Below are positions 43,056-62,861 of a stretch of DNA of 64,000 nucleotides, piece after piece. Position 1 is the first letter of the stretch. Each line of letters begins with the position of its first letter. Position numbers and translations under genes: made by a program. This stretch comes from Robiginitomaculum sp. (GTDB lineage: Bacteria; Pseudomonadota; Alphaproteobacteria; Caulobacterales; Maricaulaceae): contig JAUZSF010000017.1 of the NCBI GenBank assembly GCA_030949705.1, positions 124,001 to 188,000 on the forward strand. Direction: 5' to 3'. Under the pieces are notes generated by a model. That model made no database searches and was not told the DNA's origin. It worked only from the letters and a program-made list of their open reading frames with translations.

Positions 43056-44062
43056 CCTTGTGACCCCTGTTCTGGCGTGGATTTTTGTTCTGTATTTGCC
43101 CATTGGACATAAACTGGCACAGGAATTTTGCAAACCCCGGGCATTTTGCCTTTTTTATCTTTTTGCTGTTCCAGATAGTTGGCAAAGGCAGGGCTGTCAG
43201 TGCGCAACACCCAGACCCGGGCCCGTTCTTGTGGGGCAACTTTGCTACCCAGGGTCAGGCCATCAATCATGTCCGGCGGATAGGCAGGCGCACCCAGTTT
43301 GATCTCTTGTACGGCATTTTGGCCAGCCCGCACCCGGCCCCAGGAGGTATATTTACCATTCAGCCATTCGGGATTGCCAGTGGTGATATAAAACTGTGCA
43401 TTGGCGCTGTCAGGGTCATTCGTGCGCGCCATAGAGGCCGCCCCCTGGCAATGCAGCGCCCAGGCCTGGACCTTGCCATCCACCGTCATCATCGCCAGCG
43501 CATCGGGCTGTGACGCCACAGGAAAGCCTTTGACAAAGCCGGTATTGGCACTGCGATCTTCGCCCACGACCACCATTTTTTGTGCCGGTGAGCGGCGAAA
43601 CCTGAACTCACCCTTCAGTGGCGGGGTGGTGGGCGGAGGCCTTTTGACCAGATTGCCATCACCCGCCTGGGCCATAAAGTTTTTGATTACCCGGTGAAAG
43701 GGCAGACCGACAAAATATCCCGAACTGGCCAGTTCGCGCATGCGTTGTACATGGTTGGGGGCAAATTCGGGGGCCATTTCAATCAACGTAATGCCATGCA
43801 GGGTTTTCAGGTACAGCAGATTTTCCGGGGCCACTTCGCGCCATTGATCGGGGGCCTGCTCTGGGGTTGGCACCCCTTCGGGCAAGGGCGCGCCCAGAGG
43901 ATGATTGGGGTCTGCATCTGCGGTCGTCGCCGGCGCATCTGAGGCGGCGGCATTGCTGCCGCTCTGCTGGGCCTGGTTTTCCTGAGCCTTGGCGGAATCC
44001 ACCTGACTAGGGGCGCCGCACGCCCACAGCACCAAGGCCATAACAACAATGATTTTACGCAT
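43052..44062 (-). CDS. Peptidyl-prolyl cis-trans isomerase, cyclophilin type, exported (probable lipoprotein)
   Basis: From ATG 44062 the protein has a signal sequence MRKIIVVMALVLWACGAPSQ with a possible lipobox ending LWAC, then a Gln/Ala-rich linker and a cyclophilin domain: PFHRVIKNFMAQAGDGNLV, AASMARTNDPDSANAQFYIT and YTSWGRVRAGQNAV. The Trp in the lipobox is unusual, so lipid attachment is uncertain. About 336 residues, longer than PpiA. It overlaps the 3' end of coaD by eight bases. Confidence 0.88.
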   Translation of the reverse strand: MRKIIVVMALVLWACGAPSQVDSAKAQENQAQQSGSNAAASDAPATTADADPNHPLGAPLPEGVPTPEQAPDQWREVAPENLLYLKTLHGITLIEMAPEFAPNHVQRMRELASSGYFVGLPFHRVIKNFMAQAGDGNLVKRPPPTTPPLKGEFRFRRSPAQKMVVVGEDRSANTGFVKGFPVASQPDALAMMTVDGKVQAWALHCQGAASMARTNDPDSANAQFYITTGNPEWLNGKYTSWGRVRAGQNAVQEIKLGAPAYPPDMIDGLTLGSKVAPQERARVWVLRTDSPAFANYLEQQKDKKGKMPGVCKIPVPVYVQWANTEQKSTPEQGSQG

Positions 44063-44549
44063 GGTTACCGATCTTCTCCATAAGTTTGTCGGCGATATAC
44101 GGCGATACAAACGGCGTTATATCACCGCCCAGCCGGGCAATTTCCTTGATCAGGCGCGACGCAATGGCCTGATGCCTGGGATCAGCCATAAAAAACACCG
44201 TTTCTATGTCCGGATTAAGGCGCTGGTTCATGCCGGTCATCTGAAACTCGTATTCAAAGTCAGACACTGCACGTAAGCCCCGGATAATCACCTGCGCGCC
44301 CACGTCCTGGGCGAAGCGGATCAGCAATCCGGTCATCGGGCGCACTTCAATCTCGGCCATGCCAGAGAATTGCGCCGCTTCGGCCCGCATCATTTCCACC
44401 CGTTCTTCCAGGCTGAACAATGGATTTTTGGCGGCATTGCGCGCCACGCCAACGACCAGCTTGTCGACCAGTTTGACCGCGCGGCCCAAAATATCGATAT
44501 GGCCGTTGGTGGCCGGGTCAAAGGTACCGGGATATAAACCGACTTTCAT
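44055..44549 (-). CDS. coaD: Phosphopantetheine adenylyltransferase
   Basis: CoaD adenylylates 4'-phosphopantetheine, the penultimate step to CoA. The 164-residue nucleotidyltransferase has YPGTFDPATNGHIDILGRAV with the HxGH-like motif, RGLRAVSDFEYEFQMTGMNQ and IASRLIKEIARLGGDITPFV. It follows gyrA by about 80 bases and its end overlaps the exported cyclophilin gene. Confidence 0.96.
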   Translation of the reverse strand: MKVGLYPGTFDPATNGHIDILGRAVKLVDKLVVGVARNAAKNPLFSLEERVEMMRAEAAQFSGMAEIEVRPMTGLLIRFAQDVGAQVIIRGLRAVSDFEYEFQMTGMNQRLNPDIETVFFMADPRHQAIASRLIKEIARLGGDITPFVSPYIADKLMEKIGNHA

Positions 44550-44632
44550 AGATGCCTCTCATTGGCGGCCCGCATGCTCAAACACGTTTATGGCAAGCGG
44601 GCGGGCCTCACAAGCACGAAGCTGTGCTCGGC

Positions 44633-47422
44633 TCAAGATGATTCGGCTTCGCCACCGGTCTCGTCTTCGCCATCTTGATCATCACCGCCATCCTCGCCGG
44701 TTTCAACAATGCGTTGCACCGCCACCACCCGCTCGTCATTTTTAAGGCGAATAATGGTCACCCCGGCAGTGGCCCGCCCGGCAATGCGAATGCCGCTGAT
44801 GGGCACCCGGATCAGCTGGCCACCATCGGTGACCAGCATAATACCATCACCATCCTCGACCGGGAAAGAGGCTGCCAGGTGCGCCCCCTTCATTTTGGCA
44901 AGGCGCAGATCGTGGGCAAAAAGACCTTTGCCACCGCGTCCCGAAACCCGATATTCATAGGCCGAGGTGCGTTTGCCATAGCCATTATCAGATATGGTCA
45001 ACACAAATTGTTCGGCCGCCCCCAGGGCCAGGTCTTCATCGCCGCCATCTTCATCCTCATCGGCGATCACCGGCGTATCGGCCTCTTCGTCCTCGCCGGT
45101 GGCGCGGCGCATGGCGCTGGCATGCTTCAGATAGGCGCGGGCCTCGGCCGGGGTAATGTCCATATGGCGCAGGATCGCCATGGAGATGACTTCATCACCT
45201 TCGGCCAGACGAATGCCACGTACCCCGGTGGATGTGCGCCCGACAAACACCCGCACGGCCTCGACCGGGAAGCGGATGCATTTGCCATCCCGGGTGGTCA
45301 GCAAAACATCATCATTGGCTGAACAGGCCTGAACACCAACAATGCCGTCGCCCTCGTCCGGCTTCATGGCAATTTTGCCATTGCGCATGACATTGGCAAA
45401 ATCCGACAATTTGTTGCGCCGGATATTGCCGGATCGGGTGGCGAACATCACGTCCATTTCGGACCAGCTTGCCTCGTCCTCGGGCATGACCATGATCGAG
45501 GTAATGGTTTCGCCCTTATCCAGCGGCAGCAAATTCACCAGCGCCTTGCCCTTGGTACGCGGATCGCCCAGAGGCAAACGCCATACCTTCATGGTGTAAA
45601 CCATGCCGGTGGACGAAAAGCACAGGATCGGCGCGTGGGTCGAGGCAACGAACACCTCCGTTACATAATCCTCGTCCTTGGTGGTCATGCCGGCCCGGCC
45701 GGTGCCGCCGCGACGTTGCTCGCGATAGGTGTCCAGCGCCGTGCGCTTGGCATAGCCGCCAGCGGTGATAGTCACCACCATGTCTTCGCGGGCAATCAGG
45801 GATTCATCATCAATTTCCAGCTCGGCATCAATAATCTGGGTGCGCCGGGGTACTGCAAAGCGTTCCTTGCTGTCGCGTAATTCCTCGCGAATAATATCCA
45901 TCACCCGGTCGCGGGATTTCAGAATTTCCAGCAAATCGGCAATGGTTGCCGTAATCTTCTTGGCCTCATCGCCAATTTCCTCGCCGCCCAGCGCCGTCAG
46001 ACGCTGCAGACGCAAATCAAGGATGGCCTTGGCCTGTTCCAGAGTCAGGCGAATATCGCCATTGCCGTCCAGACGCGAGCGTGGATCGGCAATCAACTCG
46101 ACCAATGGGCCCATATCACGGGCCGGCCAGGCACGCCCCATCAGGGCTTCGCGGGCCGCCGCCGGATCAGACGCGGTGCGGATCAGCGCGATCACTTCAT
46201 CAATATTGGCAACCGCCACCGCCAGCGCCACCAGCACATGGGCGCGATCACGTGACTTGGCCAGATCAAAGCGCGTGGCCCGGGCCACCACCTCTTCGCG
46301 AAAGGCAATAAAGGCCGTGAGCATTTGCCGCAAATTCATCAATTGCGGGCGGCCCTGATCCAGCGCCAGCATATTGACACCAAAATTGGTCTGCAATTGC
46401 GAGAAACGATAAAGCTGGTTCAGCACCACTTCGGCATTGGCGTCACGCTTGATCTCGATCACCACGCGCAGGCCGTCCCGATCGGATTCGTCGCGCAGAT
46501 CGGAAATACCCTCAACCCGCTTTTCGCGCACCAGTTCGGCTATTTTCTCGATCATCGTGGCCTTGTTCACCTGATAGGGGATTTCGGTAACGATAATGGC
46601 CTCGCGGCCCTTGCGCACTTCTTCAATGGCGCATTTGGCCCGCATCACCACCGAGCCACGGCCATTGGCCAAGCCCGAACGCGCCCCTGCGCGGCCAACA
46701 ATCAGCCCGCCAGTGGGAAAATCAGGGGCCGGCACAATGTCCAGCAGGGCCAGTTCATCCAGTTCCGGATCATCAATCAGCGCCAGCGTGGCATCAACAA
46801 TTTCACCAAGGTTATGGGGCGGAATATTGGTCGCCATACCCACGGCAATGCCGCCGGCACCATTGACCAGCATATTGGGAAAACGCGCGGGCAGCACTGC
46901 CGGCTCACTTTCCGAGCCGTCATAGTTTTCAATAAAATCAACGGTATTCTTGCCAATATCGGCCAGCAAGGCCTCGGCCGGACGGCCAAGACGCACTTCG
47001 GTATAGCGCATGGCCGCGGCCCGGTCCCCATCCAGCGAGCCAAAATTGCCCTGCCCGTCCAACAAGGGCAGCGACATGGAAAAATCCTGCGCCATGCGGA
47101 CCAGCGCATCATAAATCGCCTGATCCCCATGGGGGTGATATTTACCCATCACATCGCCCACCACACGGGCGCATTTGCGGTAGGCCTTGTCGTGGGTATA
47201 GCCACTTTCATGCATGGCATAAATGATGCGCCGATGCACCGGCTTCAGGCCATCACGCACATCGGGAATGGCGCGGCTGACAATCACACTCATGGCATAA
47301 TCGAGATAGGATTTGCGCATTTCCTCGACAATGGAAATCGGCGCTACGCCTTCCTCAAAGCCCGGCCCGGCCGGCCCGCCACCTTCGGGATTATCCGGTG
47401 TTTTATCGCCTGTTTCTGTCAC
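44633..47422 (-). CDS. gyrA: DNA gyrase subunit A
   Basis: GyrA breaks and rejoins DNA during supercoiling. The 929-residue protein has the catalytic Tyr in [11 protein letters not shown], breakage-domain segments KKIT and ALGGEEIG, and the C-terminal pinwheel with the GyrA box QRRGGTGR; the C-terminal end is acidic ([18 protein letters not shown]). At the quinolone-determining site it reads [17 protein letters not shown]: Gln at the E. coli Ser83 position with Asp87 kept. It heads the gyrA-coaD-ppi-queA run, after a palindromic repeat. Confidence 0.97.
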
Positions 47423-47592
47423 TGCGTAATCCCCTAAAAATCTTTACAAAAACACCGCCCGTTCAGTGCCTTTCGACTGACCTCGAATCGGGCAGCATTT
47501 AAGGGATTATCCTAGCAGCATGCCCCTCTGTGGACCAGTGCCGGGCATGGGGAAATACGGGGGTATTTTTCTTGCAAAATGACCCAACGCCT

Positions 47593-47671
47593 GTCATTGC
47601 CCGGCGTGTCCGGGCAATCCAGAAAACGGTCAAACCTGCAACTGGATCACCCGAATAAATCGGGTGATGAC
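47593..47671 (+). repeat. Extragenic palindromic (BIME-like) element
   Basis: Two palindromes: GTCATTGCCCGGCGTGTCCG/GGCAATCCAG and CTGGATCACCCG/CGGGTGATGAC, the ends being inverse to each other. It lies in the 300-base gap between ssb and gyrA (47423-47723), which otherwise shows nothing clear. It is the best preserved copy of the family. Confidence 0.82.
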
Positions 47672-47723
47672 ACAAGACGTTAACAGCTATGTTCTTGGCC
47701 GTTTCCTATTCGCATACGCCCCT

Positions 47724-48212
47724 CTAAAAGGGGATGTCGTCATCCATGTCGCGGTCAAAGCTTTCGGGCTGACTACCGCCCTGCCCACCGCCACTACCAG
47801 AAGATGAGCCACCGCCCCCATAGGAGCCGCCACCACCCCCATAGGAGCCACCGCCGCCTTCACCGCGACTGTCCAGCATTTGCAGCTCGCCGCGAAAACG
47901 GTTCAGCACGATCTCGGTGGTGTATTTGTCCTGGCCGTCGCGGTCCTGCCATTTGCGGGTGGTCAATTGCCCCTCGACATACACTTTGGAGCCTTTTTTG
48001 AGATAGTTTTCAGCCACCCGGGCCAGATGCTCATTAAAGATCACCACCCGGTGCCATTCGGTTTTTTCGCGCCGCTCGCCAGACTGTTTGTCTTTCCAGC
48101 TTTCAGACGTGGCAATACGCAGATTGACCACCGGATCGCCATTATTCATGCGCCGCACTTCGGGGTCTGCCCCCAGATTACCCACCAGAATGACCTTGTT
48201 TACACCCGCCAT
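47724..48212 (-). CDS. ssb: Single-stranded DNA-binding protein
   Basis: SSB coats single-stranded DNA and recruits repair and replication proteins, including the HolC subunit encoded in this window. The 162-residue protein has the OB fold ([40 protein letters not shown]), a Gly/Ser-rich linker, and the C-terminal partner-binding tip DMDDDIPF. It is divergent from uvrA, a conserved pairing. Confidence 0.96.
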
Positions 48213-48398
48213 TTTTTTCTCCCCTGTCTGGCCATGCCATCCGGCCAGTCTCTGAATTTTGATTCTGAGCGATTGTTCACGTTCGCAACCTCACGTCTAG
48301 CTTAAAACGCAATCCACATGCAAAACCTGTATACGCCTCTCGAAACTCTTCTCTGTCCATGCTTATCTGCGCGGCATTGCCGGTGGACACACCTTATT

Positions 48399-48413
48399 GT
48401 TCACTTTATGTTC
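48399..48413 (+). promoter_or_regulatory. LexA (SOS) box upstream of uvrA
   Basis: GTTC at 48399-48402 and GTTC at 48410-48413 are separated by exactly seven bases, the GTTC-N7-GTTC box of alphaproteobacterial LexA. It ends 29 bases before the uvrA ATG, where LexA could block transcription. Confidence 0.82.
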
Positions 48414-48442
48414 CATTCGTCAAGTGAGTCGCAAAAGTGCCT

Positions 48443-51300
48443 ATGTCTGATCCTTTAAAGTTTATTCGCGTTATTGGCGCGCGCGAACATAATCTGCGCG
48501 GCGTCAATGTGGACATTCCCCGTGACAAGTTGGTGGTGATCACCGGCCTGTCCGGTTCGGGTAAGTCCTCATTGGCGTTTGATACCATCTATGCCGAAGG
48601 CCAGCGCCGCTATGTGGAAAGCCTGTCGGCCTATGCGCGGCAATTTCTGGAACTGATGTCCAAACCGGATGTGGAGAGCATTGAGGGCCTGTCCCCGGCC
48701 ATTTCCATTGAACAGAAAACCACCTCGCGCAATCCGCGCTCCACCGTGGGCACAGTAACCGAAATTTACGACTATATGCGTCTCCTCTGGGCGCGTATTG
48801 GTGTGCCTTATTCCCCGGCCACGGGACTACCTATCGAGAGCCAGACCATCAGCCAGATGGTGGATATCCTGATGGCGCTTCCCGAAGGCACGCGGCTCTA
48901 TCTGCTGGCCCCGATTGTGCGTGGCCGCAAGGGGGAATTTCGCAAAGAGTTTGCCGACCTGATGAAACAGGGCTTTGCGCGCCTGAAAGTAAATGGCGAA
49001 TTTTACGCCATTGAAGATGCCCCGGAACTGGACAAGAAATACAAGCACAATATCGACGTGGTGGTGGACCGGCTGGTCATCCGCGAAGGACTGGAATCGC
49101 GCCTGGCCGACAGTCTGGAAACCGCCTTGCGGTTGGCCGATGGCCTGGCCGTGGCCGAAATGGCCGATCCACCCAAAGACGGCGAAGACCGCCTTTTGTT
49201 TTCTGAAAAATTCGCCTGCCCGGTGTCCGGTTTTACCATTGCCGAGATCGAACCGCGCCTATTTTCATTCAACAACCCGTTTGGTGCCTGTCCGTCGTGT
49301 GATGGGCTGGGCCAACGGCTGGAATTTGATGCCGCTCTGGTGGTGCCGGACGAGGAAAAAACCCTTGAAAAAGGGGCCATCAAGCCCTGGTCATCGGGCA
49401 CGTCGCGCATGTATCGCCAGACGCTGGAGGCATTGTGCCGCCACTATGGCGCCGACATGAATGTGCCCTGGTATGACCTGGACGAGACGTTTCGCCAAAA
49501 GCTGCTTTATGGCACCGGCAAGGAGGTTTTGCGCTTTGTCTATACCGAGGGCAAACGCAAGTTCGAGACCGAGAAAACCTTTGAAGGGGTCGTGCCCAAT
49601 CTGGAGCGACGCTGGCGCGAAACCGACAGCAGCTGGGTGCGCGACGAGCTGGGTAAATATCAATCCGCCGCCCCCTGCCCGGCCTGTCATGCCAAGCGGC
49701 TAAAGCCCGAGGCGCTGGCGGTAAAGCTGGGCGGGCTGGATATTTCCGAAGCCACGGCCAAATCCATTGCCGAGGCCAATGACTGGTTTCTGGCCCTGGA
49801 AGATACCCTCACCGACAAGCAAAAATCCATTGGCGAGCGGGTCTTGAAAGAAATCCGCGAGCGCCTGTCTTTCCTGAACAAGGTCGGGTTGGATTATCTC
49901 TCCCTTAGCCGCTCCTCCGGCACGCTGTCTGGCGGCGAAAGCCAGCGCATTCGTCTGGCCAGTCAGATCGGGTCGGGGCTGACCGGCGTGCTCTATGTAT
50001 TGGACGAGCCCAGCATCGGCCTGCACCAGCGCGATAATGCGCGCCTGTTGGAGACATTGAAAAATCTCCGCGATCTGGGCAATTCGGTGCTGGTGGTCGA
50101 ACATGATGAAGAAGCCATATTGACTGCCGATCACGTCATCGACATGGGCCCGTTGGCAGGCGTTCATGGCGGCGAAGTGGTGGCACAAGGCACCCCGGCC
50201 AAAATTCTGAAAAGCAAAAAAATCCCTGACCGGTCAGTATTTAAGCGGCAAGAAATCTGTACCCGTTCCCGCCAAACGGCGCGAACCCAATCCGCGCAAG
50301 ATATTGCGTCTGGAAGGGGCGTGCGGCAATAATCTGAAAAACGTTACGGCGGAATTTCCGCTGGGCCTGTTTATCTGCGTTACCGGGGTGTCGGGGGGGC
50401 GGCAAGTCCACCCTGACCGTTGAAACCCTCTATAAGGCCGTGGCCCGCAAGCTCAATGGTGGCTCGAAACTACCGATGAAGCATGACTTTCTGGAAGGCG
50501 TGGAACATCTGGACAAGGTGATCGACATTGACCAATCGCCCATTGGCCGCACGCCGCGATCCAATCCGGCGACCTATACCGGGGCGTTCACCCCCATTCG
50601 CGACTGGTTTGCCGGCCTGCCCGAGGCCAAAACCCGTGGTTACAAGCCCGGGCGGTTTTCCTTCAACGTCAAGGGCGGGCGGTGCGAGGCTTGTCAGGGC
50701 GATGGCGTGATCAAGATTGAAATGCACTTTTTGCCCGATGTGTATGTTGAATGCGATGTGTGCAAGGGCGCGCGCTATAACCGCGAAACCCTGGAGGTTT
50801 TGTTCAAGGGTAAATCCATCGCCGATGTGTTGCACATGACCGTGGACGAGGCCGCGCAGTTTTTCAAGGCAGTGCCCAGCGTGCGCGATAAAATGCTGAC
50901 CCTGCAGCGGGTTGGCCTTGGCTATATCCATGTGGGACAGCAGGCCACCACGCTGTCTGGCGGCGAGGCCCAGCGGGTCAAACTCTCCAAAGAACTGTCC
51001 AAGCGGGCCACCGGCCGCACGCTGTATATATTGGACGAGCCCACCACGGGCCTGCATTTTGAGGACGTGCGCAAACTGTTGGAAGTGTTGCAGGAACTGG
51101 TGGAGAACGGCAATACGGTAGTGGTGATCGAACACAATCTGGATGTCATCAAACAGGCCGACTGGATTTTGGACCTGGGCCCCGAAGGCGGCGATGGCGG
51201 GGGGGAGATCGTGGTCGATGGCACCCCCGAAGACGTGGCCAAATGCCAGGAAAGCTGGACCGGGCGGTATCTTAAGCCTCTGTTGATGCGCCCGGCTTGA
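48443..51300 (+). CDS. uvrA: Excinuclease ABC subunit A, two frameshifts
   Basis: UvrA is the damage-sensing ATPase of nucleotide excision repair. From ATG 48443 it reads [20 protein letters not shown] with Walker [13 protein letters not shown], zinc-finger CPSCDGLG and CPACHAKRL, signature [15 protein letters not shown]; the second half has [28 protein letters not shown] and [14 protein letters not shown]. Frame breaks at the A run 50216-50222 (seven, six needed; [12 protein letters not shown] resumes) and G run 50393-50399 (seven, six needed; restores [12 protein letters not shown]). Corrected length about 951 residues. Start GTG 48437 is also possible. Confidence 0.95.
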
Positions 51301-52219
51301 GACCTCGCAAACGCCACCACAGGAACAGCGAAACGGCCAGGGCCAGCCCGCCCTGAACAAAGCTTTCTGCCCCCAATTGTTTGGGCTGTGTGCTCAGCTC
51401 GTAAGCGGTGTTCAACCCGGCCAGCGGATCCGAGGCCTCGCCCGTGCCCAAAATGACCGCCAGCGTGACGCCAAATACGATGGCGTTAAATGCCCCGTGC
51501 ATGCCCGCCGCACCGATGATGGAGCGCTCGCCCAAAGCATAAAGCCCCAGCATAGTTCCCATCAGAGTCACCGCGAGGATGGACACCACCCCGGCCAGGA
51601 CATTGCCAAAAAACAGAAAATGCACATGCAGGGAGCCAAAAAAGAGGGCACTGGCCACCAGCCCCGCCAGACGGCCATGGCGCAGGGCAATGCTGGACAT
51701 CACCCAGCCCCGGCAGATCACTTCCTCGGCGGCGCTTTGCAGCAACAGGCCAAAGACCAGCACTGCAAACACCAGTATCGTTTGCGGGCGCATCAGGATT
51801 TCCCACGAAAATGGCCCGGCATTGGCTGCCTCTTCGGGTACCAGCCCCAATGTAAAGGCGGCGACCAGCACCAATGCCAGGGCAAACATGCCCCCCCAGA
51901 ACAGGCCGCGTCCATAGCGGCCCAGCGCCCCGCGCCAGATAATGCCGGCACTGGCCAGATCGCGCCGCTCATAGAGCTTCAGCCAGAGCAGCGCCGCCCC
52001 GGCAAATACGCTGAACATCACATAAAGCGTCACCAGAATGATCAGACCCGCGCCCTGCCCGCCCAGGGCATTTCCCGCCAACAGGGCCGGTGCCATAATG
52101 AAAAATAAAAATGGCGCGGTCGCCAGATTAGCAATCAGCCAGAATGCCCAAAGCAGGAAAAACGCAGCCCAAACCGGGGTTGACCGGGCCTCTTTACCCG
52201 GGGCGGCAAAAACATTCAT
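51272..52219 (-). CDS. CPBP-type intramembrane metalloprotease (second copy)
   Basis: A polytopic membrane protein of 315 residues in the CPBP/CAAX-protease (ABI) family. Motifs are complete: [14 protein letters not shown] (EE-x-x-x-R), a His in [14 protein letters not shown], and [10 protein letters not shown] (H-x-x-x-N). Members cleave or process substrates within the membrane; the substrate here is unknown. Its TGA overlaps the 3' end of uvrA by 29 bases on the opposite strand, and its start overlaps the preceding gene by four bases. Last gene of an alternating membrane cassette. Confidence 0.88.
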
Positions 52220-53214
52220 GTTTCTTTCTTGTCCTCAGGGGCGGCCGCCTCATCCGGATCCGGTTCTGTAATGGGGGCCTCAGACACAGATGGTTTTGCT
52301 GCCTCTTCCTGGCTGACCACCAGACAAGCCCCCACCCCGGCGCCCATGGCATAGCGAATATATTCCACCACCAACCCGGTGATGGTGATAATCAGCAGCG
52401 GCACAGCGGCCAACGCCACATAGGCCCCGACATTGGCCATGTCGGGTTCCTGCCAGCCAAACATGGCCACCCCAATGCCCAAAAACGGCAAGGACACCAG
52501 CAGTGAGACAAAAAGAAGGCCGATGGACATGGCCAGCAATACAAAAAATTGCAGCACATAGGCGAAAAACAGCCCCCAGAAATGCCCCTTGCTGACGGCA
52601 AAGGTTTCAAAAACCTGGATTTTACCCCGTTGAAAGGTCAGCGCGGGGGCCGGGGCCAAACGCACCGAAGCCCAGACAATGCCGCCCAGCCAGATCACCC
52701 CATAGGCGATGGACATAATCACAAACAAACCAGCATTGCCGCTTTGTTTCATGACGGCGGCAAGACCGATCAGAATGCCCAGCGGCAACAGGGAAAACAG
52801 AATGCCAAAAAACAGCACAACGCCGACGGCAATCATCGAGACCAGCACCTGCAGCTCTGGCTCGCCAAAGCGCAAACCGAACCATTTGCCGCCATACTCC
52901 CCCTTAATCATCCAGCGCAACAGGGCGGTATAGATGGATATAAAAACGGGCAGAAAAAACAGGCTGGATAACAGGCCGATCGCCTGAAAAGTATTGCCCA
53001 ATGACTGAATTTGTAAATTAAATTCGGTCGTTTCCGGCGTGGTCTCCAGCAAGATTGGCAAAGCCTTGATGAGGAAAGGAGCCATAATGGCGAATACCCC
53101 GGCCAGCAAGATCATTCGCACGACCACATAAACGATTCCCAGGGTACGCAAGGTGCCTTTGCCCTCTCTTTTGTCGAAGACAAAAAAGGCGGCCTTATCT
53201 GCAGAAAAACTCAT
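52216..53214 (-). CDS. Polytopic membrane protein, paralogue C of the cassette
   Basis: A protein of 332 residues with about six membrane segments and an acidic, Pro-rich cytoplasmic tail (residues about 300-332). I do not recognise a named domain. It shares two blocks with the other two polytopic proteins of the cluster: FGEPELQVLV (about residue 122) and SKGHFWGLFF (about 210). The gene overlaps both CPBP genes by four bases, so expression is coupled. The general look is of glycerophosphodiesterase-membrane-like proteins, but that is a guess. Confidence 0.7.
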   Translation of the reverse strand: MSFSADKAAFFVFDKREGKGTLRTLGIVYVVVRMILLAGVFAIMAPFLIKALPILLETTPETTEFNLQIQSLGNTFQAIGLLSSLFFLPVFISIYTALLRWMIKGEYGGKWFGLRFGEPELQVLVSMIAVGVVLFFGILFSLLPLGILIGLAAVMKQSGNAGLFVIMSIAYGVIWLGGIVWASVRLAPAPALTFQRGKIQVFETFAVSKGHFWGLFFAYVLQFFVLLAMSIGLLFVSLLVSLPFLGIGVAMFGWQEPDMANVGAYVALAAVPLLIITITGLVVEYIRYAMGAGVGACLVVSQEEAAKPSVSEAPITEPDPDEAAAPEDKKET

Positions 53215-54158
53215 GCGGATTTCTCCTCTTTCTTCTTCCCGGGGCGCAAAAACCAGAGCACCCCAAGGAACAACACGATGCTGACCACCAGACTGCCTTC
53301 GGGGCCAAAGCTGCTGCCCGTAAGCCAGTCCGCCGCACCGGCCTTGTTATCAAAATCCACAATCAGGGCCGGCACATCCACGGTACTGCCGCTGACATCC
53401 AGCCCAAAGCCCAGCCCCAGCAGCCAGTTCCAGGCCCCATGAAATCCGCAAACCCCCAACAGTGAGCCTTCGCGCACCGCATAGAGCGATAAAAACAAAC
53501 CAACCAACACGATATTGGCCATGGCAATCCAGTTGACATGATCCAGACCTTCATTACCCAGATGCAAAGCGGCAAAAATGGTGGAGTTGACGATAATCGC
53601 AACCACCAGGCCCCAGCGCGCCGCCATGGCCGAAAGCACCCAGCCACGCATCATGATCTCCTCGGTCGAGCCCTGTACAATAAACCCGGCAAAAAGCAGG
53701 GCAATCATTAAAAGAGCCCCGGGCGCGTGTAACGCCGGCGCCAAGGCGGCAATATCATAACCGCCCAGCGCAAAAATGGTGAAAACTGCAATCGCGTTGA
53801 AAACAAGCCCCACCACCAGGCCGCGAACAAAACGGCCAAGGGCCTTTTGCCGGCGCAGGCCCATGCTGGCCAAAGGGCGGTTTTCCACAAACCGTACCCA
53901 CAGTACCATGGCCAGCGCACTGAAACCAAAAATGACGACCAGCATATAAAGAAGATTGGTCGGCATGGATGGTTCCTGCAGATCGATACCGGGCAACGCC
54001 ATGCCCAATATACTGCTGAGCACCTGGACACTCCCCATGACCAGTACGGCAACCACCCAGACCAGCGCCGCATACACCGGGTGCAAGCGCGGATGCGGTC
54101 CATAATCCCCATAGGGCTGAGCCTTTATCCTGCGTGGCGTTTTCTCTGTTACAGCCAT
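53211..54158 (-). CDS. CPBP-type intramembrane metalloprotease (first copy)
   Basis: A second CPBP protein of 315 residues. Its motifs are EEIMMRGWVLSAMAARWG, FAALHLGNEG and CGFHGAWNWLLGL, again the complete catalytic set. Between motifs lie conserved membrane segments; the C-terminus has DWLTGSSFGPEGSLVV, then a last membrane helix and a Lys/Glu tail. It is placed between two polytopic paralogues and overlaps the next gene by four bases, so it belongs to the same operon. Distinct from the other copy in sequence outside the motifs. Confidence 0.88.
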   Translation of the reverse strand: MAVTEKTPRRIKAQPYGDYGPHPRLHPVYAALVWVVAVLVMGSVQVLSSILGMALPGIDLQEPSMPTNLLYMLVVIFGFSALAMVLWVRFVENRPLASMGLRRQKALGRFVRGLVVGLVFNAIAVFTIFALGGYDIAALAPALHAPGALLMIALLFAGFIVQGSTEEIMMRGWVLSAMAARWGLVVAIIVNSTIFAALHLGNEGLDHVNWIAMANIVLVGLFLSLYAVREGSLLGVCGFHGAWNWLLGLGFGLDVSGSTVDVPALIVDFDNKAGAADWLTGSSFGPEGSLVVSIVLFLGVLWFLRPGKKKEEKSA

Positions 54159-54179
54159 GAGTTTCTCCTATGAGCGTGA

Positions 54180-55125
54180 TTATCGGCGTTGCGTCGATGT
54201 TTTTTGCTTGAGGGTTTGCACCGCAAATAAAGAGGCACCGGTATAAACCGCCACCTGAAACACGCTGATAATGGTGCCCGCCAGGACCACCCAGGCCACT
54301 GCAATAATCGTTTTCTGGCTTAACAGGGATTCCTGTATCAGCGCCCGTATATCCGCCGGCTCCATATTTTTCAGAATGTTCGGATCCCCGATCCAGCCGG
54401 TGGCCTGTTGCATATAAAACAGAATATTGGCTGGCGTGGTGATGGCAAACGAAACCAGGCTGAAAAGGATAATCAGGACCGAAAAGCTGAGAAACAATAC
54501 CCAGAAATGTCCCCGTGTCAGTGACCAGCTCTGCCAGAGCACCATTTTCTTTTGCGCATAAACCTGCGCGAACATCAGCGAGAAACGCACCCCCAGCACG
54601 ATCATGATCAGCGGGATCCCCATGATCGCCACCATAATCACCGTCATGGAAAGGGCCTGCACATTCAAAACGACCGCCAAGCGAATCAAGGGGGCAATCA
54701 CGGCCACGGGCACGACAAACACAATGATCAGAAACAGCCAGTTTGCCAGATATTGGCGTACTTCATCGGCACCAAAGCGAAAGGCGAAAAACACCCCCTT
54801 TACCCCTTCACCGGCACGGTACCGATAGAGCGCAGCGCGCATCAGAGCACCCGGAATCATAGCCACAAGCAAAACCGCAATATTGACAGGCAAAATGGTG
54901 TGAACAAAGTCGATCTGTGGTTTTTCGCCATTTATGGCGTCTTGAAAAATGGGCCAGAGAACCTGGCTGCCCCACCACACCACACCACCCCAAAGCACCA
55001 GATTGGCCAGAAAAAAAGGGGATGCCCACCTTGGTCAATAAAAGCAGCCAATCCGATTTTAGCCCGGCAAATCCTGCATTGAGAATGTCCCCAATTTCCA
55101 GATCAGACGGGGCGGTATCGCTCAT
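54180..55125 (-). CDS. Polytopic membrane protein, paralogue B of the cassette, frameshifted
   Basis: Corrected, this is a protein of about 314 residues with about six membrane segments. It starts MSDTAPSDLEIGDILNAGFA at 55125 and breaks at the A run 55011-55017 (seven, six needed on the minus strand as T) in GIPFFLANLVLWGGVVWW. It shares FGADEVRQYL (near residue 125) and TRGHFWVLFL (near 205) with the neighbours. No catalytic motif is seen. ATGA overlap with paralogue A. Function unknown. Confidence 0.7.
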
Positions 55126-56000
55126 GACGAATCCGACGTACTGGCCCGCAACCCGCGATATAGCGTAACATAAAGCCCGCTAATGGCCCCATTGGAGGCC
55201 GGCCAGACCAGCGCGTTCAGTATGAAAAACCATAATAATGGCTTGAGATCAAAACCAGCAGAAGCCGCATCCCCGGCCTCGGTCATGCTGGGTAAATTGT
55301 CCATAACCACTTGCATATACTGGATCATGCCCGGCGCCAGCAGCAGGTAAAACGGCAAACTGGTCAACACAATGGCCAGTGCCATGCGCCATCCCTGTCC
55401 CTTGCTCCAATTGGCGGCTTCGAACACCACCACACGCCCCTCGGCAATCACCGCCGGATAGGCCGGGGAAAACCGCGCCAATGTATATAGTCCCAACGCC
55501 CCGACCCCCAGGCCAGCCAACCCCGCGGCAATCACGCCCGCCGCCCCGGCATGGGCAAAGGCGCTGGTGGGTTCGGCCTCGATAACGGCGGGATCCACCA
55601 CACTGGTCACCACGGCACTAACGGCAAAAAAGGCGGCCATAATCCCCAAAAATACGATAAAGGCGGTGATCGCACCAACCGCAAACATGGTCAGGAACAG
55701 GCGCAGCTCGTCTGCCCCGATTTGCAGATCCAGCCCCCTGCCGGCAGTTTTACCCAGGCCGCGCCGTAAATAGGCGGCAAACAACATCACCACCAGCGGG
55801 ATCAGGGCAATGCTGAGTACCGTGCCCAGCGCGCTTAGGGCCGGCGAACCGGGATAGTAGGCCACAATCCAGGTGCTGATGACATTGGCCGCAATATAAA
55901 AAGCACCCAGTCCATAGATATAGGCCAGATTGCGGCGCAAAAAAACAAATGCCGAAATTACGCATCGCAACACGGGAACTCGATCAGAAGGCTCTGTCAT
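55122..56000 (-). CDS. Polytopic membrane protein, paralogue A of the cassette
   Basis: A protein of about 292 residues from ATG 56000 (MTEPSDRVPVLRCVISAFVF), with about six membrane segments. The shared blocks are IGADELRLFL (residues 94-103) and SKGQGWRMAL (about 200). The alternative start 56048 adds an unconserved leader. First gene of the alternating cassette; it lies about 110 bases after the TonB_C-domain gene on the same strand. I do not recognise the family. Confidence 0.72.
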   Translation of the reverse strand: MTEPSDRVPVLRCVISAFVFLRRNLAYIYGLGAFYIAANVISTWIVAYYPGSPALSALGTVLSIALIPLVVMLFAAYLRRGLGKTAGRGLDLQIGADELRLFLTMFAVGAITAFIVFLGIMAAFFAVSAVVTSVVDPAVIEAEPTSAFAHAGAAGVIAAGLAGLGVGALGLYTLARFSPAYPAVIAEGRVVVFEAANWSKGQGWRMALAIVLTSLPFYLLLAPGMIQYMQVVMDNLPSMTEAGDAASAGFDLKPLLWFFILNALVWPASNGAISGLYVTLYRGLRASTSDSS

Positions 56001-56108
56001 ATGGTCTCTCTTATTATCGTTATTCGATACGGCACAGATTTGCCCCAAATGTCAACCGACAAGCCTGGACCAAGCCCGGCTGATCACGGCCTATTCCCTT
56101 GCGAACAC

Positions 56109-57198
56109 TTATTTTTCCAGCATAAAAATAAAATTCGCCTTGATATAATCCCGACAGGCAGATGGCACGCCGGGCATCGGTGTGGCCCGCCATTCACGTA
56201 CGGCATCGGCGGCATATTTGCCAAACTTGGTCATGGGAACTTCGGCCGCAAGATTGACCTCTTTGGGTACGCCATCCTGTCCCAGTGAATATTGCACAAT
56301 GGCGGCGCCGACATATCCTTTTTTCAGCATTTTGGGCGGGTATTGCGGCTTTTCTTTCTTTATCCAGTTAATCGGCTGACAGGTTTCCGGACGACCGGTC
56401 TCTGGCGGCAAACTGGTATCAAGAATACGCCCCTTTGATGTATGACGCGAATATTGCATGGCCTTGGCCGCCTGCCCCCAGGCCCAGGCGGCCAGAAATA
56501 ACTTGTTGGGATGATCATAACGTTGTGGACCCAGCGCATCAAAAATAGCCTGAAGATCCTCTTCGGCTTCGCGGATGTTTTTAAAGTCCGATTGAATAAG
56601 AACCGCCGAGGCATCAAACAGCTTTACCGACGCCAGGGCTGAAGGCGCGTTCATTTCCAGGGCCTTATAAACGTCCAGCGCGGCTTTGGCTTCGGCGCGC
56701 GTGGTGCGCCAGTCCTGGTTATAGCTGGCATCTTTCATCAATTCGAAATGCGAACGAAATACTGGATAGGAGGGTTTCAGTTGGGCCGCATCATAGGCTT
56801 TCATTGCCCATTTCAACGACCGCCGGGTATTTTTGTTTGGCTTGTCCATAAACGCGCTCAGCCCAAAGATCAGTTGTGTACTTTGTACCGTCAGTCCTGG
56901 ATTGTCTGCAGTTTTGGTCAGAACAAAGGCGCGTTTGGCCGGTGTTTTGACATCGGCATGGGGTAAATAGCGCAGCCGTAATTCGGCCAGATTATAGGCC
57001 AGTATGGCACTGTATTTTTTGTTGTTTGCCTCTTCGGCAGCTTTCCAGGCCTTTTCGCCTTCGCGGTCCGCGGTAACGATATCGCCTTGATCCAGCGCAG
57101 CCAGATAGGCCTTGTACGCCTGTATCATTGGTGAGGCGGCTTGGGCACCCCCCGGCAAACATCACGCACACCAACGCAACCAGACATGAGAATCTCAT
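56109..57198 (-). CDS. Exported protein with helical repeats and a C-terminal TonB_C-like domain, frameshifted
   Basis: Starts MRFSCLVALVCVMFAGGAQA, a signal peptide; frame breaks at the C run 57148-57153 (six, five needed) inside it. The mature protein has Ala-rich helices like TPR units (KAYLAALDQGDIVTADREGE and following) and a C-terminal TonB-like fold: KPQYPPKMLKKGYVGAAIV, YSLGQDGVPKEVNLAAEVP, FGKYAADAVREWRATPMPG. Unlike classical TonB it has no N-terminal anchor with Pro-rich spacer. About 362 residues. No exbB/exbD is near. It is divergent from trmFO. Confidence 0.8.
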
Positions 57199-57288
57199 GC
57201 TCTCCCCCTGTATTTATACACCCAGGCCGAGGTTACAGCGCCTGGCGGGCTTGACGCAAGTCGACGATGGCTGAATACCCGCCCCATG

Positions 57289-58711
57289 ATGAAAAAAACT
57301 GTACAACATTGTGGGTGGCGGCTTGGCCGGCAGCGAAGCAGCCTGGCAATGCGCCGGGGCTGGCGTGCCCGTCATTATCCACGAAATGCGCCCCGAACGG
57401 GGCACCGAAGCGCACCTTACCGACAAGCTGGCCGAGCTGGTGTGCTCCAACTCGTTTCGTTCTGACGATCATGAAAATAATGCAGTGGGCCTGCTACACG
57501 AGGAAATGCGCCGCTGTGGCTCGTTGATCATGCGTTGCGCCGACCAGCACAAAGTGCCCGCCGGCAGCGCCCTGGCCGTGGATCGCGAAGGCTTTTCTGC
57601 CGCCGTCAATGCAGCCATCGAAGCCCACCCGCTGATTACTATTGAACGGGGCGAAATCGCCGGCCTGCCCCCCGCCGATTGGGATAATGTGATCATTGCT
57701 ACCGGGCCGCTGACCTCGCCGGCGCTCAGCGAAGCCATTCTGGCGCTGAGCGGGGAAGATGGCTGGCATTTTTTGATGCCATCGCGCCCATCATCCACCG
57801 GGACAGCATTGATTTTACCAAGGCCTGGTTCCAGTCCCGCTATGACAAGGGCGATGGCGCAGACTATATCAACTGCCCCATGGACAAGGACCAATACGAG
57901 GCCTTTATCGATGCCCTGTTGGGCGGCGATAAAACCGAGTTCAAGGACTGGGAAAAGGACACCCCCTATTTTGATGGCTGCCTGCCGATCGAGGTAATGG
58001 CCGAACGGGGCCGCGAGACCCTGCGCCATGGCCCCATGAAACCGGTGGGGCTGACCAATGAACACAACCCCACGGTCAAGCCCTATGCCATTGTGCAATT
58101 GCGACAGGATAATGCCCTGGCCACGCTTTATAATATGGTGGGGTTTCAGACCAAACTGAAATACGGGGCGCAACAGGCTATTTTCCGTATGATCCCGGGT
58201 CTGGAAAATGCCGAATTTGCCCGCCTGGGCGGCATTCATCGCAATACGTTTTTAAATTCGCCCGTAGTACTGGACCACACCTTGCGCCTAAAGGCCGAAC
58301 CTCGTCTGCGCTTTGCCGGCCAGATTACCGGAGTGGAAGGCTATGTGGAAAGCGCCGCTTGCGGGCTGATGACCGGGCGCTTTGCCGCCGCCCAATATCT
58401 GGACACGCCAATAGAATCACCACCCCAAACCACGGCTCTGGGGGGCTTTGCTGGCCCACATTACCGGTGGCCACCTTGCCGAAAAACGCAGTTTTCAACC
58501 CATGAACATTAATTTTGGCCTGTTCCCTCCTATGGATACCCCGTTCAAGGACGAAAACGGCAAAAAATTGCGCGGCAAGGAGAAAACCCGGGCCAGAAGA
58601 CGCCTTATTACAGCCAGAGCGCTTGACGATATACAAATCTGGACTTTGACTGGCGTATCGTATTCGCACCGGGGGAAAGTCAGCGCGGATGATATTACCG
58701 CCGAGCCATAA
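57289..58711 (+). CDS. trmFO: Methylenetetrahydrofolate--tRNA-(uracil-5-)-methyltransferase TrmFO, three frameshifts
   Basis: TrmFO uses folate and FAD to make ribothymidine at position 54 of tRNA. The flavin site is [14 protein letters not shown]; other blocks are [40 protein letters not shown] and [20 protein letters not shown]. Breaks: A run 57292-57298 (seven, six needed) in [11 protein letters not shown]; about 57763-57772, where one base is missing, in [12 protein letters not shown]; and G run 58440-58445 (six, five needed) in [20 protein letters not shown]. Corrected length is about 473 residues. The tail after RALDDI is longer than usual. Confidence 0.92.
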
Positions 58712-59516
58712 GTTGAACACAGGATTTTCCTGGCGAACCCGCCCGGTTGAAAATCTGCGTCACCTTGATTCGGCTGTGGTCAATGATTTCAACGAAAAGG
58801 GCTATGCCCTGGTGCCCGACGCGGTACCGGCGGATCAACTGGATATTCTGATCTCGGCGATTGACCTTCTGGAAGGGCGCGAAGAAGAAACCGTGCTGAC
58901 CTTTGACAGTGGCGAAGCGGTGGTCTTTGGCATCGACCAGATGACCTTTGCCTGCAACCTTGCTGCCCAGAGCGAAGTATTGCGGGCCTTTTCCAGCGGC
59001 CCCCTGATGCGGGACCTGATGCACGACCTGATCGGTCCCGATGTTCGTATGTATTGGGATCAGGCGGTTTATAAAAAGCCACGCCATGTGGCTGATTTCG
59101 CCTGGCACCAGGACAATGGCTACACCTTTACGGAACCACAGGACTATGTGACCTGCTGGCTGGCGCTAACCGATGCAGATGCCTCTAATGGCTGTCCCTG
59201 GGTGCTGCCGGGCCTGCACCGCAATGGCACCTTTGCCCATGATCAGAGCGAAGAAGGCCTGGTCATTTCCGGTCTGGACCATGACAGCATTGTGGACCGG
59301 GCCATCTGCACCCCGGCCAAAGCCGGCGACATGGTCATTTTCTCTTCCCTGACGCCGCATATGACCGGCCCCAATCTGACCAGTGAAACCAGAAAGGCCT
59401 ATATTCTGCAATATATGTCAGATGGGGCGGTGCGTGTTCATGATGATGGCACCCGTGAAGCGCTGAATAATGCCACCAATAATTTCTACATTCTCAGAGA
59501 CGGTAAGGCCGTTTAA
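58689..59516 (+). CDS. Phytanoyl-CoA dioxygenase (PhyH) family protein
   Basis: A 2-oxoglutarate/Fe(II) dioxygenase-fold protein of 275 residues. The iron triad is readable as HQD in [11 protein letters not shown] and a distal His in [11 protein letters not shown], with the 2-oxoglutarate-binding Arg in [15 protein letters not shown]. PhyH-type enzymes hydroxylate varied substrates; the substrate cannot be inferred. The ATG at 58689 overlaps the trmFO end by 23 bases, though TTG 58713 is another option. A strong terminator follows. Confidence 0.87.
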
Positions 59517-59537
59517 AATCGTCCCATAGTGAATAAA

Positions 59538-59565
59538 AAAACCCCGGCTCCATGGCCGGGGTTTT
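59538..59565. terminator. Bidirectional Rho-independent terminator
   Basis: AAAACCCCGGC (59538-59548) and GCCGGGGTTTT (59555-59565) form a perfect 11-bp stem around a six-base loop. The A and T runs allow it to serve both the PhyH gene and the convergent PuuD-like gene. Confidence 0.95.
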
Positions 59566-59583
59566 ATGCTTAGCAGGCTGAAC

Positions 59584-60195
59584 CTAGCCAAACAGGGTTT
59601 GTGACCCTGCCATGGCCACCAGCATGGGCAGCGAGAGCAGCGTATTGGTACGCGAAAACAACATGGCCTTGCGCGCGGCGGCGGGTTTGGCCTCGGCCGG
59701 CGCATCAATCAGGCCCAGAGCAATTTTCTGGTTCGGCCAGATAATCACCCAGACATTAAAGGCCATGATAATGCCCATCCACATGCCCAGCCCCAAAAAG
59801 ACATGCTGGACATTGGCAAAGCCGTCCATGGCGCCAATGGTCAGTGTTTCCACCAGATAACCGCGATGCCCTGCCAGTGCCAGACCGGTCAGCAAGGTAG
59901 CCGCCGCGCCCCAGCGAAACCAGAACAAAGCGGCCGGCGCAATGACCTTGCCGATGGCCGGTTTCTGGTCATCCGGAATTTTAGCCATGTTGGGGATTTG
60001 CACAAAGTTGAAGTACCAGAGCAAACCAATCCACATGACCCCGGAAATGACATGCAGCCAGCGCAGAAAAGCGATGGTGACCGCCGCGCCACTATATTCG
60101 CTTCCCGAGAGAACGTAATACAGCGCGTACATCAATACGGCGAGAATGAGAGAGACGATGATCGTCGAACGAAGGTTAGATAGTATACCAGCCAT
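59584..60195 (-). CDS. PuuD-like (urate hydroxylase family) membrane protein, membrane domain only
   Basis: An inner-membrane protein of 203 residues with several helices, including FLRWLHVISGVMWIGLLWYF, PAALFWFRWGAAATLLTGLA and FLGLGMWMGIIMAFNVWVII, with the WPNQKIALG block. It matches the membrane part of PuuD but has no C-terminal cytochrome c domain with a CxxCH. Whether it acts on urate is doubtful; no purine breakdown genes are near. Its end faces the shared terminator. Confidence 0.8.
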   Translation of the reverse strand: MAGILSNLRSTIIVSLILAVLMYALYYVLSGSEYSGAAVTIAFLRWLHVISGVMWIGLLWYFNFVQIPNMAKIPDDQKPAIGKVIAPAALFWFRWGAAATLLTGLALAGHRGYLVETLTIGAMDGFANVQHVFLGLGMWMGIIMAFNVWVIIWPNQKIALGLIDAPAEAKPAAARKAMLFSRTNTLLSLPMLVAMAGSQTLFG

Positions 60196-60284
60196 TTTGG
60201 CCCCCTGAAAAACTGTGATGGCCTATTATGGGGCATGACGGGGGGGGCGCGTCAATCCGCCGCAAGCGGTAAATTTGAATTATT

Positions 60285-61217
60285 TTACTCTTCAAATTCG
60301 CCGCGATTGACCCCCAGCATCAACAAAATCGGGGCCGCCACGAAGATCGAGGAATAGGTGCCCACCACCACGCCCCAGATCATGGCAAACGAAAACCCGC
60401 GCAACACTTCGCCGCCCATAAAGAACAAGGCCAGCAAGGCCAACAGGGTCGTAAAAGAGGTAATCGTCGTCCGCGACAGGGTTTCATTGATCGACAGGTT
60501 CAACACGTCCATTAGCGGCATGCGTTTATAACGGCGCAGGTTTTCACGAATGCGGTCATACACCACCACGGTATCATTCATCGAATAACCGACAATGGTC
60601 AGAATGGCCGCAATAATCGACAGATTAAATTCCAGCCGCGAAATCGAAAACATACCAATGGTGAGAATAACATCGTGGGCCAAGGCCACCACGGCCCCGA
60701 CCGAGAATTGCCATTCGAATCGGAACCAGATGTAAATCAGCATACAGATAAGCGCCCCCACCACGGCAAATATGCCGGCATTGACCAATTCGCCAGACAC
60801 TTTTGGACTGATGACCGAAGTTGCCCGATAGGTGATACCCTCGAAATTCTTGTCCAGCGCTTCCCTGACCGTGGCAATGGCAGATTGCTGCGCATTGGCC
60901 CCCTCTATGCCTTCGCCGGCCTGTTTTTCGATCCGGATTCGCACAATCGAATCACTGCCAAAATGCTGAACCTGTACATCCCCAAGACCCAGATTGGTAA
61001 CTACAGAGCGGATTTTTGCCAGATCCGCCGGCCCCTGGGTTGCAATCTGAATTTGCGAACCGCCGCGAAAATCAATGCCAAAGTTCAACCCCAGCATCAG
61101 AAAGGCCACAATGGAAACGATAATGGCCAGACCAGAAACGGTAAACGCGATAAAACGCTGTTGTACAAAGGGAATTTTCGTACCAAGCGGGATATATTGG
61201 GATAGCGCGAGAGACAT
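60285..61217 (-). CDS. secF: Protein translocase subunit SecF
   Basis: SecF works with SecD to use proton motive force in protein export through SecYEG. The 310-residue protein has a first membrane helix, periplasmic P1 domain, and membrane segments with LNFGIDFRGGSQIQI, IVGYSMNDTVVVYDRIRENL and NETLSRTTITSFTTLLALLA. It follows secD by 11 bases. Last gene of yajC-secD-secF. Confidence 0.97.
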   Translation of the reverse strand: MSLALSQYIPLGTKIPFVQQRFIAFTVSGLAIIVSIVAFLMLGLNFGIDFRGGSQIQIATQGPADLAKIRSVVTNLGLGDVQVQHFGSDSIVRIRIEKQAGEGIEGANAQQSAIATVREALDKNFEGITYRATSVISPKVSGELVNAGIFAVVGALICMLIYIWFRFEWQFSVGAVVALAHDVILTIGMFSISRLEFNLSIIAAILTIVGYSMNDTVVVYDRIRENLRRYKRMPLMDVLNLSINETLSRTTITSFTTLLALLALFFMGGEVLRGFSFAMIWGVVVGTYSSIFVAAPILLMLGVNRGEFEE

Positions 61218-61228
61218 GATAGCAGTCC

Positions 61229-62861
61229 TTAAATCGGCAGGGTTTTTGGCTTGGCCTTAAACAGCCAATATGAGGTCAGCAGGCGCGAAAAGACAAAGGC
61301 AGTAAATACCGAGGTAATAATCCCGATCGCCAAGGTTACCCCAAAGCCCTTCACCGGGCCGGAGCCAAATTGCAGCAACAGAACCGCCGCAATCAAGGTG
61401 GTGATATTGGCATCCAGAATGGTTGAACGCGCCTTGGCATAGCCGGTTTCAATGGCATTCATCGGCGTTTTACCGTTTCGATATTCTTCACGCACCCGCC
61501 CGAAAATCAGTACATTGGCATCCACCGCCATACCAATGGTCAGGATAATCCCGGCAATCCCGGGCAGGGTCAGGGTTGCCTGCAATGCCGACAATGCCCC
61601 CATCATCAACAGTACATTGGCAATAAGTGCCAAGTCGGAAATCAAGCCCAGCATACCATAGACAATCACCATAAAGACAACCACCGACAAAAACCCGATA
61701 ATCAGCGCCAGAGCACCGGCGCGAATGGAATCCGCCCCCAGCTCGGCCCCTACCGTCCCCTGGTCCAGCACGGTAAGCTTGGCAGGCAAAGCCCCGGCCC
61801 GTAACAGGATCGACAGATCATTGGCGCTTTCGGTGGTAAAGCCGCCCTCGATAATTCCTGATCCACCCAAAATCGGCGAGTTGATTACCGGGGCGGAAAT
61901 CACCTTATTATCCAGCACAATGGCGAAGCGACGACCAACATTTTCCGCCGTAGCCTTGCCAAAACGCCGGGCCCCCTTGCCGTTAAAACGAAAGGACACG
62001 GCCGGCTGGCCGCTGCGGTTAAAGGTTGGTTTGGAATCCACCAGATCCTCCCCATCGACCAACGGACGGCGACGGATCAATACATAGGGCTCGGCGGGGT
62101 TGGACCCTTCGACCAGCCTGGCCCCCGGCGGAATACGCCCGGCCTGAGCCTCGGCCACGGTAACCGATGTATCCAGCAAATGAAACGTCATCTTGGCGGT
62201 CTGACCGACCAATTCCTTGATTCGTTCCGGATCGCTCTTGCCCGGCACCTCAACAATAATACGGTCATCACCCTTGCGCTGGATGGTCGGCTCGCGCGTG
62301 CCCAGCTCATCAATACGCTGGCGAATCACCTCGATCGAGCGTGCCACCGCATCCTTTGATTCTTTTTCCAGCGCTTCGGGGGTCAGAGTCAGGGTAATAC
62401 GCCCGCTTTTCGGATCGCTGTCGATCACAAAAAGGCGGCTTGGCACTGCCGGTCAACAAGGCCGCCGCATCCACGGTGTTAATTGGTTTTAGTCGCTCCA
62501 ACGCCAGATCCATTTGCTCAGGGCGCGCCAGCCGAAACGTGACTGTGTCGCCGCTGACCCGAAAGCCGGTGGCTGGAATAATGGGTTTTTCACTGCGCAG
62601 GAACTGGCGCGCATCATCAGCGGCCGCTTCCAGCTTGCCTTGTTTTACCGAAGCCACATCCACTTCATAGAGCAGGTGCGTGCCCCCCTGTAGATCCAGC
62701 CCCAGATTAACCGTTTTTCTGGGCATGAAGGACGGCAAAGTTCCCTCAATATCGGGGCCGCCTCGTATGCTTTCCGGCAAGACATTCGGCAAAGCATAGA
62801 AAAAACCAGCAAGTACGATCAGCCAAATAAAGGCTTGTTTTAGCTTGGAAAAATGTAGCAT
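61229..62861 (-). CDS. secD: Protein translocase subunit SecD, frameshifted
   Basis: SecD completes the SecDF accessory complex. It starts MLHFSKLKQAFIWLIVLAGF at 62861, then TVNLGLDLQGGTHLLYEVDV; the second part has ARSIEVIRQRIDELGTREPT, IIVEVPGKSDPERIKELVGQ and the membrane region with AVDANVLIFGRVREEYRNGK. Frame breaks near 62430-62434 (A run on plus, five, four needed on the minus strand as T), joining SAKPPF to VIDSDPKSGR. Corrected length is about 543 residues. Confidence 0.95.

Follow-up and report, generated by a model that had tools for sequence, protein, structure and literature searches.

A gene cassette of two CPBP-family proteins and polytopic membrane proteins beside uvrA in Robiginitomaculum

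Nearest described systems

CPBP/Rce1-like proteins (PF02517) are known from several bacterial systems, and two of them are encoded in a run of five minus-strand genes, A, B, CPBP1, C and CPBP2, in Robiginitomaculum sp. (assembly GCA_030949705.1). The run lies at 51272-56000 of the 64,000-nucleotide stretch analysed here (contig JAUZSF010000017.1, positions 124,001 to 188,000; hereafter the window). A, B and C are membrane proteins of a family that we call PMP. The kinds of component are known or near-known; their combination appears to be undescribed in the literature searched. In a search for operons of CPBP and six-helix-family genes and for Robiginitomaculum, the matches listed, as excerpted, contained no description of the arrangement, and the initial annotation of this DNA had likewise known of no named system with this layout. 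Papers are cited below by accession, and what is taken from them is limited to the excerpts available.

Both window CPBPs resemble the wider CPBP/Rce1-like family in exceeding its Pfam cut-off and in keeping the EExxxR, H and HxxxN motifs, but they fall under every NCBIfam equivalog cut-off and have PMP genes, not a known substrate, next to them. The myxosortases MrtX and MrtJ share the protease family, and MrtJ forms a two-gene unit with its target (PMC11980579, in excerpt). In contrast, the neighbours of the cassette CPBPs are six-helix paralogues and the scores are well under the myxosortase family cut-offs. Apart from the CPBPs, the cassette codes for polytopic PMPs; this statement covers the cassette and not the genome, for which no CTERM-tag search was made. 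In lipoprotein N-acylation by LnsA and LnsB, a CPBP-like membrane protein also works with a second protein, but the CPBP-like protein, LnsB, departs from the catalytic motifs and its partner LnsA is an enzyme of the NlpC/P60 type (PMC7387801, in excerpt), whereas the cassette CPBPs have intact motifs and PMPs as neighbours.

On the side of the membrane proteins, GPDPase_memb (PF10110) is matched weakly by one PMP member (E 0.048), but A, B and C themselves lack a PF10110 match. CysZ (PF07264; PDB 3tx3) aligns with the structure model of C at a TM-score of 0.65-0.66 by target length and a probability of 0.99; however, the Foldseek E was 0.33-0.34, CysZ ranked behind ABC exporters of lower TM-score, and the model of A aligned more weakly (TM 0.38-0.42). 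Homology to CysZ was rejected, given the poorer fit of A and an hhalign probability of 0.3, the value obtained for an unrelated CPBP control. PF07264 had no match in the genome of the window.

Gene order, CPBPs and membrane proteins

The initial annotation described five genes on one strand within 51272-56000, and this description was confirmed:

A, 55122..56000, minus strand: first gene of the five; six-helix membrane protein of 292 amino acids, PMP family; single open frame
B, 54180..55125, minus strand: PMP family; start ATG at 55125, overlapping the stop of A by 4 bases; split over two frames
CPBP1, 53211..54158, minus strand: Rce1-like glutamic intramembrane protease by Pfam, 315 amino acids; PF02517 E 1.5e-16; single open frame
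C, 52216..53214, minus strand: PMP family, 332 amino acids, with an acidic C-terminal tail; single open frame
CPBP2, 51272..52219, minus strand: Rce1-like glutamic intramembrane protease by Pfam, 315 amino acids; PF02517 E 7e-13; single open frame

The full order was found in 9 of 18 genus genomes (the window, G003, G004, G005, G008, G009, G010, G013 and G017). CPBP2 adjoins uvrA in eight of these nine, and uvrA lies beyond trmFO in G004. G001 is consistent with the full order, spread over two contigs. B is missing from three genomes (G006, G011, G014) and C from three others (G012, G015, G016), in which the CPBPs stand side by side; G002 has CPBP2 alone at a contig end, and none of the five genes was seen in G007. 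Because it recurs in other assemblies of the genus, the five-gene order is beyond chance. The strict alternation of CPBPs with membrane proteins that had been emphasised is thus a feature of half of the genus genomes, and in other genera of the family a single CPBP is the usual form.

Four-base overlaps, each reading ATGA on the minus strand, occur at three of the four junctions (A/B at 55122-55125, CPBP1/C at 53211-53214 and C/CPBP2 at 52216-52219). The claim that nearly all genes overlap in this way therefore holds for these three but fails between B and CPBP1, where a 21-base gap separates the end of B (54180) from the start of CPBP1 (54158). The intergenic distances of -4, +21, -4 and -4 bases leave no room for a small-peptide gene between the five genes. 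The 3' ends of CPBP2 and the convergent uvrA overlap by 29 bases. Both linkage and strand are conserved throughout the genus and in part of the family, with many near-contact junctions, in agreement with the earlier proposal that the genes are made as one unit; within the family, the homologues are linked rather than scattered singly.

The PF02517 scores of CPBP1 and CPBP2 are 60.9 and 49.1 bits against a curated cut-off of 22.4. EExxxR, H and HxxxN are intact in both, as had been annotated, and in a count made with a looser pattern all 73 cassette CPBPs in the family, those of the window among them, keep these motifs. Neither protein reaches the NCBIfam equivalog cut-offs for sorting enzymes: CPBP1 scores 29.9 of 130 bits for MrtS, 22 of 75 for MrtJ and 12.9 of 195 for MrtC, and CPBP2 scores 19.3 against 130 (MrtS) and 15.1 against 75 bits (MrtJ). 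The two share ~31% identity. In phylogenetic trees the CPBP2 (CP2) types form one well-supported clade and the CPBP1 (CP1) types fall outside it, in more than one group. This placement rules out a recent CPBP duplication, and by their sequences CPBP1 and CPBP2 are old, distinct types, which extends the initial description of two distinct CPBPs.

Among the 73 family CPBPs, the upstream same-strand cassette neighbour is a PMP in 66 and another CPBP in five; the remaining two (L045, L080) are at contig ends. With a mechanical choice of starts, 23 of the 66 PMP-to-CPBP junctions permit a 4-base overlap, 33 permit another start within -40 to +60 bases, and 10 permit neither. An N-terminal motif of the CP1 types was dropped as a marker of the cassette, as cassette and solitary CP1 types start alike by eye. 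A motif-flagged frame in L183 (2759-5179), of about 800 residues and without a profile match, was judged spurious, and the motif-only frames of L102 and L106 lie outside the trmFO-uvrA interval.

Iterated profile searches seeded with A, B or C converge on an identical set of 154 frames in the fetched loci. On this evidence the three proteins are paralogues of one uncharacterised family, and their earlier description as related stands. A, the larger piece of B, and C have no Pfam match at E <= 1 and none in PHROGs or PADLOC, and their NCBIfam matches are at chance level. AF2 models of A (pLDDT 83.6) and C (pLDDT 76.1), each based on 11 sequences, have six long helices, and fold searches with these models returned nothing at E <= 0.001; CysZ, with the model of C, was the sole match whose TM-score was fair. 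Consensus motifs in a small genus alignment are GLRFGxDELRxF, in a loop, and a second motif, TKGxFWxLF. The orthologues of A form their own clade in the genus. A wider alignment (A1) comprises 73 of 147 listed frames and three window rows.

When 76 PMPs were scanned, single members gave weak matches to 15 Pfam families. The best was to Cyt_bd_oxida_II (E = 4.1e-4, one member), and others were to DUF4013 (two members, best E 0.0022), DUF7544 (0.011) and GPDPase_memb (one of the 76, at the E given above). A likeness of PMP to GPDPase_memb and to other six-helix families of unknown function is presumed. In the class genomes PF10110 gave 12 matches, six of which also match the PMP profile, all six under the PF10110 cut-off. 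A profile-profile comparison of PMP with these 12 gave a probability of 97, in a set of which nine are below the cut-off and six also match the PMP profile; with the three over-cut-off sequences the probability was a weak 10. Because of the weak Pfam matches and the genes shared between PF10110 and PMP, PMP may be a distant relative of GPDPase_memb-like six-helix proteins, with A, B and C giving no PF10110 match themselves.

The initial annotation had missed that B is not one open frame in the window. Its first ~51 residues, counted from the ATG at 55125, are in a different frame from the rest, with the switch at about 54982-55019. Of 13 copies of B in the genus, 11 are single open frames and those of the window and G013 are split; single-frame orthologues include those of L021-L025, L055, L056 and L057. 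Since uvrA (48437-51300) and trmFO (57293-58645) are likewise split over frames in the same assembly, the break in B is probably an assembly indel error, to judge from the reading frames. Several indels seem present in this 10-kb stretch. The assembly totals 2.83 Mb, and the named genomes closest to it are metagenome assemblies of Robiginitomaculum sp. (L055-L057).

Upstream of A, on the same strand, lies a gene with a TonB C-terminal domain (PF03544) at 56109-57158, which may belong to the same transcription unit as the cassette. Similar genes occur in 18 of 56 CPBP-bearing loci, and the N-terminus of the L055 copy looks signal-peptide-like by eye. Within 44000-62500 there were 0 matches to RNA families. 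Promoter-like elements numbered 6 vs 4.1 in shuffles and terminator-like elements 14 vs 11.2 in shuffles, and PHROGs and PADLOC scans gave no matches.

Distribution and history of the locus

Of 137 family genomes, 55 carry a type 1 or type 2 CPBP within the cassette. The CPBP2 search, which also catches CPBP1 types, found 56, with G024 having a weak match away from the locus. Because PF02517 is matched in 132 of the 137 genomes, CPBP absence is counted for the cassette alone. PMPs were found at E <= 1e-5 in 113 of the 137. At least two PMPs are present in 53 of the 55 genomes with a cassette CPBP vs 26 of the 82 others, a count made by hand and not corrected for ancestry. In 38 of the 56 CPBP-bearing cassette loci, trmFO and uvrA are both present and flank the cassette; 12 loci lack uvrA and 8 lack trmFO in the fetched stretch, and several of the 12 come from genomes with uvrA at another site. 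In the other genera of the family, 36 of 38 CPBP loci combine a single CPBP with 1-5 PMP frames; the remaining two (L037, L038) have two CPBPs. Genera carry CP1 only, CP2 only or both, and one (g9) is mixed, with CP1 or CP2 by genome.

Eleven loci were compared in the rest of the order. Eight have PMPs between trmFO and uvrA (families f2 and f3), two have PMPs adjoining uvrA (f4), and one shows neither gene; family f5 was left out at its uvrA site. Five f3 loci (L216, L217, L218, L226, L230) hold a CPBP1-like gene together with PMPs between trmFO and uvrA, and the idea that CPBP-PMP linkage is limited to one family was dropped on this account. Solitary CPBP1-like genes of families f2 and f3 (L039, L040, L233) sit downstream of a same-strand gene for an AraC-type regulator. 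In f5, L219 (8185-10150) and L220 (8589-10606) have a tandem CPBP pair in a PMP-free fetched stretch, near an acyl-CoA dehydrogenase-type gene. Across the class, 44 of 190 genomes have PMPs, and three of these 44 belong to the order. Of 40 loci from beyond the order, five (L177, L180, L181, L185, L203) have a PMP directly adjoining uvrA, and this neighbourhood points to an old link of the PMP family to the uvrA site.

In the larger CPBP tree, a quick one without bootstrap from which L043, L049, L053 and L070 were left out, all 46 rows of the CP2 clade are labelled at-locus. The at-locus and solitary labels need four changes on the tree, at least two of them forced by starred branches, where solitary means PMP-free in the fetched stretch (mostly 8-9 kb each side). 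Because PMPs often occur without an adjacent CPBP, the CPBPs were added to a PMP locus that predates them and are not matched partners. In the simplest history that we infer, an old PMP array stood at uvrA and was joined by a CP1-type gene, either early in the history of the order or on several occasions; CP2 would have arisen within the array, and repeated losses would have followed.

Possible functions of the cassette

We tentatively favour, at somewhat less than even odds, an assembly of PMPs in the inner membrane to which active glutamic intramembrane proteases are coupled, in which the complex, the proteolysis, the substrate and the envelope role are all inferred. The core of such a module would be the old six-helix PMP family, which has no recognised catalytic domain and occurs as a single gene or as several in tandem, in most cases flanked by trmFO and uvrA. 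Robiginitomaculum and some of its relatives have one or two Rce1-type glutamic intramembrane proteases encoded among the PMPs and probably translated together with them. The PMP paralogues would assemble into a hetero-oligomer that holds or displays an envelope substrate whose gene lies elsewhere. CPBP1 and CPBP2, each with a specificity of its own, would cut this substrate, or misfolded PMPs, within the membrane plane. We prefer this explanation because of the motif conservation, the placement of the genes and the pairing of CPBP presence with PMP expansion: the complete catalytic conservation argues for proteolysis by the cassette CPBPs, and their position downstream of PMPs argues for coupled production.

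Several observations weigh against it. The cassette contains no substrate gene, and the CPBP members Abx1 (PMC3578759) and LnsB (PMC7387801) act without protease residues, according to the excerpted text. Since other CPBP members occur in nearly all family genomes, the presence of a CPBP does not by itself identify the cassette. PMPs were found in 241 of 249 order genomes vs 87 of 249 for CPBP1-like genes (E <= 1e-8), and all 40 PMP loci outside the order lack a CPBP by profile. Twenty more loci of the family were compared, 19 of them in genomes lacking a CPBP2 match and one in G024: 19 have 1-5 PMPs and no CPBP by profile, and L100 has neither a PMP nor a profile-matched CPBP. Conversely, 15 of 20 CPBP1-like loci fetched from families f3 and f5 have no nearby PMP. 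These last two counts also do not support the earlier suggestion that proteases and membrane proteins are matched partners.

The CPBPs might instead act without cleavage, their Rce1 fold serving as a membrane scaffold or chaperone that gives PMPs lipids or proteins, or as a regulator of a membrane partner. The excerpted papers offer precedents: Abx1 works through CovS and does not need its protease residues (PMC3578759), and LnsB, which lacks key residues, serves as the CPBP-like partner protein in the N-acylation of lipoproteins (PMC7387801). Unlike LnsB, every cassette CPBP has the full catalytic set, which suggests that the active site is used, but conservation is not proof of use because Abx1 keeps residues that are dispensable (PMC3578759, in excerpt). 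We consider a non-catalytic role rather unlikely. The genes could also share transcription without sharing work, if the trmFO-uvrA interval is a stable site of PMP expansion where CPBPs were caught and kept for an independent role. That PMPs and CPBP1-like genes are each found without the other fits this idea, as do the label changes on the tree and the CPBP-free PMPs that directly adjoin uvrA outside the order. Against it stand the uniformly at-locus CP2 clade and the PMP next upstream of 66 of the 73 cassette CPBPs, 56 of which have a possible start -40 to +60 bases from its stop, and we regard mere co-residence as doubtful.

A dedicated sorting or processing function, each CPBP maturing its own C-terminally anchored protein or bacteriocin-like peptide, has a parallel in the CPBP member MrtX, which cleaves C-terminal sorting signals (PMC11980579, in excerpt), and CPBP1 does match MrtS and MrtJ weakly. 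Its scores are nevertheless far under their cut-offs, and the junctions described above cannot hold a small gene; we judge this function improbable. It would also be a long shot that the cassette encodes a bacterial multi-subunit intramembrane protease, with A, B and C as the body of the complex and two non-redundant Rce1-type proteases as built-in catalytic subunits. By analogy, and just as speculatively, such an enzyme would be a prokaryotic architectural counterpart of gamma-secretase, in which the subunit APH-1 is assigned to the CPBP family (PMC7387801, in excerpt).

The locus ties two CPBP types to one membrane protein family, and it highlights a family that is present in nearly all of the order genomes sampled and whose scanned members have given scattered weak Pfam matches only. 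Its natural variants without one, the other or both CPBPs form a comparative series for partners and substrates.

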